From: Actinomycetota bacterium
GTDB taxonomy: Bacteria > Actinomycetota > Acidimicrobiia > IMCC26256 > PALSA-610
DNA: 40,802 nt
Direction of reading: 5' to 3'
Assembly: GCA_003134555.1 (NCBI GenBank)
Contig: PLBO01000151.1
Location: 212,757-253,558, forward strand
Under the pieces are notes generated by a model. The model did no database searches and was not told the origin of the DNA. It saw only the letters and a program-made list of their open reading frames with translations. Position numbers and translations under genes: made by a program. This document shows, in pieces, positions 5,701-40,104 of this stretch (its first letter is position 1; each line of letters opens with the position of its first letter).

Positions 5701-6938
5701 CCGTCGCGAGTCAGCCGTACCGGCAGGTGGCGGATGCCGGTGTGCTTGTTGCTGCGCGTCCACTCGACCGGGCCGGTCAGCTCGATCTCGCCGACGCGTG
5801 CGCACAGCTCGTCGAGCACGACGCGGATCTCGAGGCGCGCCAGGTTCGCGCCGAGGCAGTGGTGCACGCCGTGACCGAACCCCAGATGCGGATTCGGGTC
5901 GCGGTCGAGGTCGAAGCGGAACGGATGCGCGAACACGTCCTCGTCACGATTGGCGGACGCCTCCCAGAACACGACTTTCTCGCCCGCATGCACGAGTTCT
6001 CCGAAGAGCTCGAGGTCGCGTGTCGCGGTGCGACGGTTGTACGCGGCGGGATGGGTCCACCGCACGATCTCCTCGACCGCCGCGCTGCTCGCGCAACGAG
6101 CGGCGCGTAGCGCGCGCCACTGGTCGGGGAACGCGTCGAGCGCGACGACCGCGCCCGCGATGGCGTTGCGCGTCGTGTCGGCGCCGGCGGCCCAGAGCAG
6201 CGAGAAGAAGAACTGCAACTCCTGGTCGGTGAGCTCGGGCGGATCCTCGCCCGCGAGGCGGGCGTGACAGACGACGGAGAGCATGTCGTCGGCGGGGTGC
6301 GCGCGCTTTTCGGCGATGAGCGCCGTGCCGTACTCGAACATCGAGATGGCGGCGCGAGACACCTCGTCGGTGGTCTCGAAGGCCTCGCGTCCGCCCTTGA
6401 AGTCGAACGCGTGCTCGATCCAATCGAACAACTGATGACGATCAGCTTCGGGGATGCCCATCAAGATGCAGATCGCCTGCATGGGCAGCTCCCCGGCGAT
6501 CTCGTTCACGAAGTCGCAGTCGCCTCGGTCGATTGCCGCCGCGACGAGTTGCGCGGTCCGCGCGCGCAGGTCGTCCTCGAGCCGCGCGATCATGCGCGAG
6601 GTCAAGCCCTTGCTCACGAGCATCCTGACCCGTTGGTGACGCGGGTCGTCCATCATGTTGAGCATCAGGCCAGCCACGGGCAGGTCGTTGAGTGTCGTGC
6701 CCCCGAAGGGCCGCGTGCCGCCGGTCTCCGAAGAGAACGCGCCCGGATCATGCACGACCGTCATGCACGCGGCGTGCGAATTGACCGACCAAAATCCCTC
6801 GCCCTCGGGCGTGTGCTCGGTCGGCTCGTGCCAGAGCACCGGCGCGACGTGGCGGAGCCGGGTGAACACGTCGTGCGGGAAGCCACCGGCGAAGAGGTCG
6901 AGGTCGGTGAGGTCGACGCCCTCGGGAATGCGCGCCAC
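5697..6938 (-). CDS. Cytochrome P450
   Basis: 413 aa, the usual length for a soluble bacterial P450. It has the I-helix oxygen-activation motif AGADTT at 251-256, ExxR (EEIVR, Glu290/Arg293), and a heme loop LGFGHGVHHCLGANLAR with Cys361 as thiolate ligand. The C-terminal KHTGIRHLPVRL resembles the CYP124/125/142 lipid and sterol hydroxylase branch, but this placement is a weak inference. Electrons must come from a ferredoxin and reductase, which are not in the window. GTG start at 6938 has no RBS and probably a leaderless transcript. It lies head-to-head with the Ddn-like gene at 6964, with only 25 bases between starts. Confidence 0.95.
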   Translation of the reverse strand: MARIPEGVDLTDLDLFAGGFPHDVFTRLRHVAPVLWHEPTEHTPEGEGFWSVNSHAACMTVVHDPGAFSSETGGTRPFGGTTLNDLPVAGLMLNMMDDPRHQRVRMLVSKGLTSRMIARLEDDLRARTAQLVAAAIDRGDCDFVNEIAGELPMQAICILMGIPEADRHQLFDWIEHAFDFKGGREAFETTDEVSRAAISMFEYGTALIAEKRAHPADDMLSVVCHARLAGEDPPELTDQELQFFFSLLWAAGADTTRNAIAGAVVALDAFPDQWRALRAARCASSAAVEEIVRWTHPAAYNRRTATRDLELFGELVHAGEKVVFWEASANRDEDVFAHPFRFDLDRDPNPHLGFGHGVHHCLGANLARLEIRVVLDELCARVGEIELTGPVEWTRSNKHTGIRHLPVRLTRDG

Positions 6939-6946
6939 GGGTGTCG

Positions 6947-6952
6947 ACGTTA
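6947..6952 (-). promoter_or_regulatory. -10-like TAACGT for the P450 gene
   Basis: TAACGT on the minus strand ends eight bases before the GTG at 6938. Its first two bases are the same TA base pairs used by the opposite hexamer at 6951-6956. Confidence 0.45.
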
Positions 6953-6956
6953 CTCT
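6951..6956 (+). promoter_or_regulatory. -10-like TACTCT for the Ddn-like gene
   Basis: TACTCT ends seven bases before the ATG at 6964. No RBS exists in the 25-base gap, so the transcript is probably leaderless. Confidence 0.5.
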
Positions 6957-6963
6957 CGGTTAT

Positions 6964-7398
6964 ATGCCGAACCTCGAAGACTTCAACAACGATTTCAACG
7001 CGTTCAACAACGCAGTCATCGACGAGTTCCGCAACAACGGTGGCCAGGTCACCGGCATGTTCGCGGGTGCCCCGCTGGTGTTGGTCACGACCACCGGAGC
7101 CAAGTCGGGGAAACGACGCACGAGCCCGGTCGTGTACACGACCGACGGCGATCGGGTCGTCGTCATCGCCTCCAAAGGCGGCGCGCCGACGAGTCCCGAC
7201 TGGTATCACAACCTCGTGGCGAACCCGGACGTGACGGTCGAACTGCCGACCGAGACGTTCGAGGCTCGCGCCAAGGTGGCCGAGGGACCGGAGCGGGATC
7301 GGCTGTACGACGCGCAGGCCGCGCTGATGCCGAACTTCGCCGAGTACCAAAAGGCGACGACCCGAAAGATCCCGGTCGTCGTACTCGAACGCGTCTGA
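6964..7398 (+). CDS. Deazaflavin (F420)-dependent nitroreductase family protein, Ddn-like
   Basis: 144 aa. The segment GAPLVLVTTTGAKSGKRRTSPVVYTTDGDRVVVIASKGG, shortened here in description, is the split-barrel core of PF04075 proteins such as Ddn; the Lys/Arg cluster after SGK binds the F420 phosphate tail in this family. The following SPDWYHNLVANPDVTVE block is also diagnostic. It should use reduced F420 to reduce a quinone-like or other lipid-soluble substrate at the membrane. The ATG at 6964 is chosen because the conserved region starts soon after it and a -10-like hexamer sits at leaderless distance. A longer open frame reaching back to 6655 is antisense to the P450 and is not coding. 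Confidence 0.9.
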   Translation: MPNLEDFNNDFNAFNNAVIDEFRNNGGQVTGMFAGAPLVLVTTTGAKSGKRRTSPVVYTTDGDRVVVIASKGGAPTSPDWYHNLVANPDVTVELPTETFEARAKVAEGPERDRLYDAQAALMPNFAEYQKATTRKIPVVVLERV

Positions 7399-11988: not shown

Positions 11989-12001
11989 TGATACGACGTT
12001 A

Positions 12002-12022
12002 CGCTTCGCCCCGAATGAAGCG
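12002..12022 (+). terminator. Short hairpin after EamA gene, weak terminator candidate
   Basis: CGCTTC at 12002-12007 pairs with GAAGCG at 12017-12022 across a nine-base loop. There is no T-run, so termination activity is doubtful. Confidence 0.25.
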
Positions 12023-12054
12023 CGACCAAAATCAACGGGACTGAGGGAGGCGAA

Positions 12055-13686
12055 GTGATCTCGAGCACGATGCAGGATTTCCCGTTGACGATCACCGCCG
12101 TCCTGCGCCACGGGATGAGTGTCTACGCCGATGCCGAGTGCGTCACCTGGACCGATGCGGGCCCCCGGCGCGCCACGTACGGGTCGATCGGCGCCAACGC
12201 CGGACGCCTGGCGAACGCGCTCACACGCCTCGGCGTGCAGGCGGGCGACCGCGTCGGCACGTTCATGTGGAACTCGCAGGAACACATGGAGGCGTACCTC
12301 GCCATTCCGTCGATGGGCGCGGTCCTGCACACGTTGAACATCCGGCTGTTCCCCGAGCAACTTGCCTACGTGATCAACCACGGCGAGGACAAGGTCGTGC
12401 TGGTCGACGATTCGCTCGTTCCGGTACTCGCCAAGGTCGTCTCCGAGCTGACCAGCGTCGAGTGCTTCGTCATCGTGGGCGACGGCGACGCGTCGGCGCT
12501 CGGGACCGACCGCCCGATCGCGCGCTACTCCGAGCTGCTCGCGCAGGAGTCTTCCGATTTCGCGTGGCCCGAGATCGACGAACGCCAGGCCGCGGCCATG
12601 TGTTACACGTCGGGGACCACCGGCAACCCGAAGGGCGTCGCGTACTCGCACCGGTCGGCGTTCCTCCACTCGATGGCGGCACTGACCGGCAACGCGCTCG
12701 ATCTGTCGGAACGCGATCGCATTCTCATGATCGTTCCGATGTTCCACGCGAACGCCTGGGGCATTCCGTACGCGGCCTTCTTGTGCGGAGCGTCGCTCGT
12801 GATGCCGGGCCGGTTCCTGCAAGCCGAGCCGCTCACGCGCATGGTGAAGGAAGAGCGCGTCACGTTTTCGGGCGCGGTGCCGACCATCTGGGCCGACATC
12901 TACCGCTACGGCGAGACGAACGACATCGACCTGTCGAGCATCCGCATGATCGTGTGTGGGGGCTCGGCCGTCCCGCGTTCGCTCATGGAGAACTTCGAGA
13001 AGAAGTACGGCGTGCGCATCATCCAGGCATGGGGCATGACCGAGACGTCGCCGCTCGCCGCGGTCGCGCATCCTCCCGCGTCGGTCGCGATCGGCTCGAC
13101 CGACGAGATGGACTGGCGCGCGCGCACCGGTCGGGTCGTGGGCGGCGTCGAGATCCGTATCGTCGACGACGCGGGAACATCGCTGCCCTGGGACGGCGAG
13201 GCCGTCGGCGAGATCCAGGTGCGGGGTCCGTGGATCACGGCGTCCTATTACCGCGACCCGTCCCCCGAGAAGTTCGACAACGGTTGGCTGCGCACCGGCG
13301 ACGTCGGCAGCGTCTCGCCCGAGGGATACATACAGATCACCGACCGGGCAAAGGACGTGATCAAATCCGGTGGCGAATGGATCAGCTCGGTCGAGCTCGA
13401 GAACATTTTGATGGGCCATTCCGACGTGCTCGAGGCGAGCGTCATCGGCGTTCCCGATCCGCGTTGGGACGAGCGTCCGCTCGCGTGCGTGGTGCGCTGC
13501 AGTGGCTCGGAGGTCGGCGCGGCGGAGCTCGCCACTTACCTCGCCGGGCACGTGGCCAAGTGGCAGGTACCCGAACGATGGGCCTTCATCGACGAGGTTC
13601 CGAAGACATCGGTCGGAAAGTTCGACAAGAAGGTGCTGCGGGCCCGCCACGAGAAGGGTGAGCTCTCCATTGAACAACTGGATTGA
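12055..13686 (+). CDS. AMP-forming acyl-CoA synthetase (long/medium-chain fatty acid CoA ligase)
   Basis: 543 aa, a full-length ANL-superfamily enzyme. The P-loop MCYTSGTTGNPKGVAYSHRS lies at about 182-201, followed by VPMFHANAWGIPY. The adenylate-binding segment AWGMTETSP, the hinge region WLRTGDVG with EGYIQITDRAKDVIKSGGEW, and the C-terminal catalytic Lys in KTSVGKFDKK are all present. It activates a carboxylic acid as acyl-AMP and then acyl-CoA. The GTG at 12055 is set by RBS GGGAGG five bases upstream; an ATG at 12070 is an alternative. The NUDIX gene begins within its last 29 bases, so they are likely co-expressed. Confidence 0.95.
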   Translation: MISSTMQDFPLTITAVLRHGMSVYADAECVTWTDAGPRRATYGSIGANAGRLANALTRLGVQAGDRVGTFMWNSQEHMEAYLAIPSMGAVLHTLNIRLFPEQLAYVINHGEDKVVLVDDSLVPVLAKVVSELTSVECFVIVGDGDASALGTDRPIARYSELLAQESSDFAWPEIDERQAAAMCYTSGTTGNPKGVAYSHRSAFLHSMAALTGNALDLSERDRILMIVPMFHANAWGIPYAAFLCGASLVMPGRFLQAEPLTRMVKEERVTFSGAVPTIWADIYRYGETNDIDLSSIRMIVCGGSAVPRSLMENFEKKYGVRIIQAWGMTETSPLAAVAHPPASVAIGSTDEMDWRARTGRVVGGVEIRIVDDAGTSLPWDGEAVGEIQVRGPWITASYYRDPSPEKFDNGWLRTGDVGSVSPEGYIQITDRAKDVIKSGGEWISSVELENILMGHSDVLEASVIGVPDPRWDERPLACVVRCSGSEVGAAELATYLAGHVAKWQVPERWAFIDEVPKTSVGKFDKKVLRARHEKGELSIEQLD

Positions 13687-38712: not shown

Positions 38713-39537
38713 CTATCCCTGCGGCACGTGACGGCGTAGATGCGCGGTTTGCGTGGCGATCGCGCAGAGCCGGCCGTCCTCGTCCCACAGTCGGGCCGGA
38801 CCGGTCGCGTAGCCGTCGCCGACGTGCCAGGCCTCGATCTCTTGGAGGACCCAGGGCGTCACGGGCGTGCGCACGAAGCGGATTCCGATCTCGAGCGACA
38901 ACACCATGAACATTTCAGCAGAGTCGTCGGGCGGTCCGAGGGCGCGTCCGACCGCCGGCCCCAGCACGTCGCCGTGCACCGCGAGGCTGAGCAGGTGGGG
39001 CTCGGTCTCCCGCAGGCGCACCCACGACAGGAAGTGACCCTTGCCCGGATCGTCGAGCGGGCTGACCGGCCGCCACTCGGTCTGTCCGTGGAAGTTGATC
39101 TGGCCGAAGGGGTTCGGCCGCTCGGGCGGCATCTCCACGCCGGCCGGACCCGGAACCTCCGGGAACCGGACCTGCTGATGGGACAGCTCCGTGTCGTGCG
39201 CGGCGCCGAACACACCGTGCACTCGCAGCGCGGGGCCGTCGACGCCCGGGACGCGCAGGTCGGCCGCGACCTGGGAGGCACGCCGGCCGTCGCGCAACAC
39301 GTCGACGTCGATGGTGATCGGCCCCGCGGGAACCGGCGAGAGGAAGATCGCGTTCGCGGTCACGAGCGACAGATCCGTGCGTCCGAGGTGCTCCTGCATC
39401 GCGCGCAGCGCCGCGTACATCGAGACGCCGCCGAAGATGTAGACGACCTTCCAGGCGTCGGGGAGATTCCCGTGGAATCGGCCGCGCCGGTCGGGGTCGG
39501 CGGTGAGGATCGTGTCGTCGCGGAGGTCGCGAGGCAT
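38713..39537 (-). CDS. Double-hotdog thioesterase-like protein (4HBT_3/TesB group)
   Basis: 274 aa. The first hotdog has AWKVVYIFGGVSMYAALRAMQEHLG and TANAIFLSPVPAGPITIDVDVLRDGRRASQ. The second ends ARLWDEDGRLCAIATQTAHLRR, the same LW-x-EDG-x-L...A-x-Q-T motif as the protein at 22433. The order of strands and the R-x-x-SQ segment fit acyl-CoA thioesterase II-like proteins, substrate unknown. The ATG at 39537 has TAGGCT six bases upstream. It lies head-to-head with the gene at 39562, with 24 bases between start codons. Confidence 0.82.
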   Translation of the reverse strand: MPRDLRDDTILTADPDRRGRFHGNLPDAWKVVYIFGGVSMYAALRAMQEHLGRTDLSLVTANAIFLSPVPAGPITIDVDVLRDGRRASQVAADLRVPGVDGPALRVHGVFGAAHDTELSHQQVRFPEVPGPAGVEMPPERPNPFGQINFHGQTEWRPVSPLDDPGKGHFLSWVRLRETEPHLLSLAVHGDVLGPAVGRALGPPDDSAEMFMVLSLEIGIRFVRTPVTPWVLQEIEAWHVGDGYATGPARLWDEDGRLCAIATQTAHLRRHVPQG

Positions 39538-39543
39538 CGGAGC

Positions 39544-39549
39544 AGCCTA
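39544..39549 (-). promoter_or_regulatory. -10-like TAGGCT for the second thioesterase gene
   Basis: TAGGCT on the minus strand ends six bases before the ATG at 39537. It shares the TA base pairs at 39548-39549 with the opposing hexamer. Confidence 0.5.
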
Positions 39550-39553
39550 CGCT
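39548..39553 (+). promoter_or_regulatory. -10-like TACGCT for the carboxymuconolactone decarboxylase-like gene
   Basis: TACGCT ends eight bases before the ATG at 39562; no RBS fits in the gap. Confidence 0.5.
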
Positions 39554-39561
39554 CTGGCCTC

Positions 39562-40104
39562 ATGGAACCTCGCCTGCGGCCACTGCCGCGCGAAGAGTGG
39601 GACGACGAGACGCGCGCGTTGCTGGGCGACCGCACGCTGAAGGTCTTCGCCACGTTCGCGCATCATCCCAAGCTCATGAAGCGTTGGCTCGTGTTCGGCA
39701 ACCACGTGCTCGCGAAGAGCACGTTGCCGGCCCGCGATCGCGAACTTCTCGTGTTGCGCACAGGTTGGAACTGTCGTGCGCAGTACGAGTGGGGTCAGCA
39801 CGTCGCGATCGCGCGTGGGATCGGCATCGGCGACGACGAGATTGCGCGCGTCGCCGAAGGTCCGGATGCCGGCGGTTGGTCGGAGGCCGACGCGGTACTG
39901 CTGCGCGCCGCCGACGAGCTGCACAACGAGCAGACGTTGTCGGATTCCACATACGCCGCGCTCGAGTCGCGCTACGACGTTCAGGGCCTGCTCGACCTCG
40001 TGTTCACGGTCGGCCAGTACCACTTGGTGTCGATGGCGCTGAACGCGTTCCGGGTCGAGCGCGACGACGATGTCACGGGCGTTCCGATCCCAACTCGCGA
40101 GTGA
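39562..40104 (+). CDS. Carboxymuconolactone decarboxylase/AhpD-like protein
   Basis: 180 aa helical protein. LPARDRELLVLRTGWNCRAQYEWGQHVAIARGIGI is the CMD core (PF02627), described here in part: the R-D-R-E-L, the W-N-C-R and the E-W-x-x-H positions are all conserved. Only one Cys precedes the His, so the AhpD CxxC redox pair is absent and a peroxidase-partner role is unlikely. Such single-domain proteins are common beside lipid and aromatic degradation genes with unclear activity. ATG 39562 is the first codon after a leaderless-type hexamer; the frame upstream is antisense to the thioesterase. Its last 32 bases overlap the convergent nuclease gene. Confidence 0.85.
   Translation: MEPRLRPLPREEWDDETRALLGDRTLKVFATFAHHPKLMKRWLVFGNHVLAKSTLPARDRELLVLRTGWNCRAQYEWGQHVAIARGIGIGDDEIARVAEGPDAGGWSEADAVLLRAADELHNEQTLSDSTYAALESRYDVQGLLDLVFTVGQYHLVSMALNAFRVERDDDVTGVPIPTRE

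Follow-up and report, generated by a model that had tools for sequence, protein, structure and literature searches.

The feature under study lies within a window of 40,802 nucleotides (the whole stretch of DNA that was analysed), in the gap between two divergent genes. The minus-strand gene (38713-39537) encodes an acyl-CoA thioesterase-like protein (Pfam 4HBT_3/4HBT_3C, E 1e-18), its ATG at 39537 reading as CAT at 39535-39537, while the plus-strand gene (39562-40104) encodes a protein of the CMD (carboxymuconolactone decarboxylase) family (Pfam CMD, E 5e-11) and begins with ATG at 39562. Both starts, 39537 and 39562, are exactly those called by a coding model blind to promoter motifs. The end of the CMD gene overlaps a convergent gene (40073 to ~41596, minus strand) by 32 b (40073-40104).

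The complete intergenic gap is the 24-b sequence CGGAGCAGCCTACGCTCTGGCCTC (39538-39561), within which the core AGCCTACGCT (39544-39553; pattern ANNNTANNNT) contains one TANNNT -10 hexamer on each strand, the two overlapping at a single central TA (39548-39549), as in bidirectional promoters with overlapping -10 elements. The predicted -10 hexamer of the thioesterase gene, TAGGCT (39544-39549, minus strand), stands 6 b from its ATG with its first T at -12, which coincides with the leaderless peak of the genome, and the predicted transcription start site (TSS) is the A of the ATG at 39537. The predicted hexamer of the CMD gene, TACGCT (39548-39553, plus strand), stands 8 b from its ATG with its first T at -14, within the leaderless range of spacers (6-9 b), and its TSS is predicted at 39560-39562. 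No Shine-Dalgarno sequence precedes either start, as is usual for leaderless genes, and neither direction of the gap shows anything resembling a -35 element. An earlier sequence-only reading had described this arrangement of TAGGCT and TACGCT around a common TA between starts 24 b apart, together with the thioesterase and CMD-like identities; the sequence reads exactly so and Pfam agrees with both assignments. The same layout had been claimed for unrelated genes at 6938/6964, where direct reading confirms a 25-b gap with the core ACGTTACTCT (6947-6956) between a P450 gene (5697-6938, minus strand) and a gene for an F420H2-dependent quinone reductase (6964-7398, plus strand), both identified by Pfam.

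The window holds three copies of ANNNTANNNT as against 11 expected from shuffles. The third (11996-12005) lies between co-directional genes, ahead of a 9-codon open frame, and was rejected as a member of the class since its flanking genes are not divergent. In this region (12000-12070) the leaderless 9-codon frame (MKRDQNQRD and a stop) comes after a -10-like TACGCT site and ahead of GGGAGG and then an acyl-CoA synthetase gene (start at 12055 or 12070, plus strand); the short frame is a possible leader peptide.

The -10 signal of the host genome

The host assembly comprises 4.63 Mb in 154 contigs (~68% G+C). Statistics were drawn from whole-genome pattern searches and from 1.83 Mb of stretches of the genome, on which gene starts were called by a self-trained coding model. 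In the divergent gaps of a 1.11 Mb sample, TANNNT reaches 38-42 per 10 kb, as compared with 2.7 in genes (~14-fold). Furthermore, its first T peaks at -12 to -15 relative to the start codons in the host genome stretches, and 33% of the sides of wide divergent gaps carry it at a spacer of 6-9. TANNNT is the -10 signal of this genome, and the pattern is the one already known for leaderless genes in Actinobacteria (PMC3160421; PMC3898074).

Apart from this, TANNNT is ~4.5 times rarer inside genes than TANNNA (2.7 vs 12.1 per 10 kb; 1.11 Mb sample), a scarcity that suggests selection against stray -10 hexamers. Among 225 one-sided leaderless promoters of the 1.83 Mb sample, A is depleted specifically 4 b upstream of the TA (11/225, against 24-48/225 at other upstream positions), this being the base that would make an opposite-strand -10. 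Such depletion may reflect the avoidance of two-way initiation or a base preference of the promoter; A is also depleted directly after the hexamer, which keeps a position-specific preference a live alternative.

Recurrence, conservation and breadth of the shared-TA layout

In the whole genome, 20 sites combine a ANNNTANNNT core with start-like triplets 5-9 b away on both sides. As a raw count this is no excess, the same whole-genome search giving 24 sites for the composition-matched control TNNNTANNNA and 36 for the reversed pattern. Raw counts were dropped as a test because control sites seldom lie at real gene starts, and controls for gene context and spacing were used instead. Starts supported by the coding model on both sides were found at 13 of the 20 sites, against none of the 23 scored TNNNTANNNA sites (Fisher 2e-6), and L006, just under the coding-start threshold, is a possible fourteenth; the unbiased whole-genome figure for shared-TA divergent pairs is hence 13 (14 with L006). 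With the core held constant, start-like triplets are enriched only at spacers of 5-9 b (16 sites, the other spacing blocks averaging 2.5). In the 1.83 Mb sample, with starts called without promoter information, 9 of 14 divergent pairs with gaps of 20-28 b share the TA (0.24 expected under independence), a fraction inflated by the sampling, as 10 of the 13 contigs in the sample had come to notice through carrying a match. Scaled to the whole genome by our own arithmetic, ~13 of ~26 near pairs (about half) would share it, against ~0.5 expected. The 23-bp geometry is the prevailing one; just two close pairs of the sample have the 18-bp TANNNTA form. The recurrence of the layout is not due to chance: the genome-wide comparison called for in the sequence-only reading finds shared-TA cores concentrated between true divergent starts, but no excess in the raw motif count.

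The flanking genes of these sites have diverse, mostly metabolic functions, and the layout is therefore not tied to a pathway. Divergent gaps of 22-28 b are not clearly over-represented (11 pairs at 21-27 b, with 6, 8, 15 and 10 in the neighbouring bins). Because such gaps are not in excess, and because two leaderless divergent -10 elements that are crowded together must overlap, the layout is not a separate design; it is best understood as the form taken by two divergent leaderless promoters that lie this close together.

Orthologous gaps were fetched from three congeners by homology of the flanking DNA and not by the motif. The core is retained in 38 of 42 orthologues, the four exceptions being three of the P450/F420-reductase pair and one truncated contig. 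Identity across the congeners is 96% for the fixed core bases, 90% for the core N, 75% for the spacers and 85/85/68% for codon positions 1/2/3 (fixed core vs spacer, p = 5e-11, the columns being not fully independent); small indels occur in the spacers of several orthologues, while the core is seldom altered. At the thioesterase/CMD pair, the 24-b gap, both start codons and the core are invariant in all three congeners, and a second genus of the family (G006, with the same sequence in the Acidimicrobiia record KatS3mg009) has the orthologous pair with a gap of 24 b and the shared-TA core ACTCTACGCT. The shared core was not seen at the pair in other genera of the family (L083, L085, L091), where the gap is longer or the neighbours differ. 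In all three congeners the P450 and F420-reductase genes are still closely spaced but the core is gone; the layout therefore turns over.

Breadth was assessed in relatives, the named ones being metagenome assemblies of Actinomycetota/Acidimicrobiia, sorted into GC-richer and AT-richer by the count of the control motif, the figures being motif counts without gene calls. The 48 GC-richer relatives have 625 sites at spacers 5-9 as against 134 at spacers 15-19, and the 13 AT-richer relatives show a small excess (712 vs 569). Elsewhere in the phylum, some genomes show an excess (for example, 38 vs 12, 49 vs 27 and 21 vs 4), and those with high motif counts throughout show none. The layout is not confined to the genus or lineage of the host. 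The earlier proposal of a bidirectional leaderless promoter class in this lineage is supported, in that the layout recurs at ~13 pairs and is conserved across species, with the qualification that it is neither specific to the lineage nor a separate design.

A putative two-way promoter and its known counterparts

The segment 39544-39553 is very probably a bidirectional promoter of the sigma-A type, with both predicted transcripts leaderless. RNA polymerase with the housekeeping sigma factor (its identity being presumed) would bind it in either orientation; the TA at 39548-39549 would fill positions -12/-11 in each -10 element, and the -7 base would be supplied by T39553 for the plus direction and A39544 for the minus direction. 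On the usual distance from -7 to +1, the TSSs are predicted at 39537 (minus) and ~39560-39562 (plus), ~23-25 bp apart, so that both mRNAs would begin within ~2 b of their start codons and be leaderless. Since each polymerase would partly cover the first codons of the other gene, the two directions should compete; two-way transcription, leaderless translation and competition are all inferred here from the sequence. The lack of a -35-like sequence in either direction means that activity could be weak or activator-dependent.

Three other readings need to be weighed. According to the first, a genuine promoter exists in one direction only, and the opposing TANNNT arises by chance from the symmetric TA and one further A or T. 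A single added base is indeed enough to make the mirrored hexamer, and the P450/F420 core was lost between species though the genes stayed adjacent. Nevertheless, this reading is improbable: the mirror A is present at 18 of 21 near promoters and at only 2 of 71 ordinary leaderless promoters of wide gaps, both ends of the core are conserved in 38 of 42 orthologues, and chance mirroring predicts ~0.1 TA-sharing pair in the 14-pair sample, in which nine were seen. The second, more improbable still, takes the core as a palindromic operator for a factor that represses or activates both genes, and not as the promoter itself. Some cores are near-perfect palindromes (for example, GACGCTAGCGTC at L013) and N-pair palindromy is slightly over expectation (23 vs 17.4, p 0.04); against this, the N positions vary widely across sites with only ANNNTANNNT in common, the core stands at the set distance from the start codon that a -10 would have, and the genes on either side are diverse in function. 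With palindromy this weak, the operator hypothesis was rejected. The third, that at least one of the two start codons is wrongly assigned, that the transcripts carry leaders and that the layout is a coincidence, draws on the starts being predicted and on the right gene at L003, where a motif-aware caller prefers an ATG further downstream preceded by a Shine-Dalgarno sequence, and is very unlikely in view of the motif-blind placement of both starts, the unchanged start codons and 24-b gap in three congeners, the same gap length in the second genus and the absence of a Shine-Dalgarno sequence before either start.

The bidirectional promoter thus favoured is a minimal case, in which 24 b lock the promoter and both start codons together, and single-base changes in the shared core give clean predictions (loss of one direction vs loss of both). 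The mirror-base data suggest that one-way promoters avoid the mirror base. More tentatively, and less likely than not, the doubly leaderless bidirectional promoters of Acidimicrobiia and other GC-rich relatives could be a class under selection and of long standing, in which one TA fixes both the transcription and the translation starts of two unrelated genes, ordinary promoters being kept one-way by avoiding the mirror A.

Both components of the arrangement have precedents. Bidirectional promoters with overlapping -10 elements have been described by Warman, Grainger and colleagues (PMC12825309, PMC10268837); the commonest distance between their divergent TSSs is 18 bp, 10 and 23 bp being frequent too, and opposing polymerases cannot bind simultaneously (PMC12825309). 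By our derivation, the 23-bp class and the shared-TA arrangement are one and the same in geometry. In Actinobacteria, leaderless genes are marked by a TANNNT ~12 bp ahead of the start (PMC3160421), and such genes are also found in M. tuberculosis (PMC3898074) and C. glutamicum (PMC3890552). In the portion of PMC3898074 consulted, closely juxtaposed divergent promoters are common in M. tuberculosis and prpD/Rv1129c is divergent and leaderless, with no shared -10 class described for such promoters; a literature search combining leaderless with bidirectional promoters found nothing specific.

The present gap resembles the overlapping -10 promoters (PMC12825309, PMC10268837) in its -10 symmetric for both strands and in its predicted TSS distance of ~23 bp, one of the common spacings, and differs in that both transcripts, from the predicted TSSs, would be leaderless, whereby promoter geometry would also fix the start-codon distance. 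With the leaderless TANNNT genes (PMC3160421, PMC3898074, PMC3890552) it shares the hexamer ~12 bp before the start codon and the lack of a Shine-Dalgarno sequence and of a clear -35, while in the present gap a pair of such signals, one on each strand, overlaps. The 23-bp bidirectional class and leaderless TANNNT genes are therefore both already described; the thioesterase/CMD gap is an unusually clear sequence-level example, which extends bidirectional promoters, at that level, to an uncultured leaderless-rich group.
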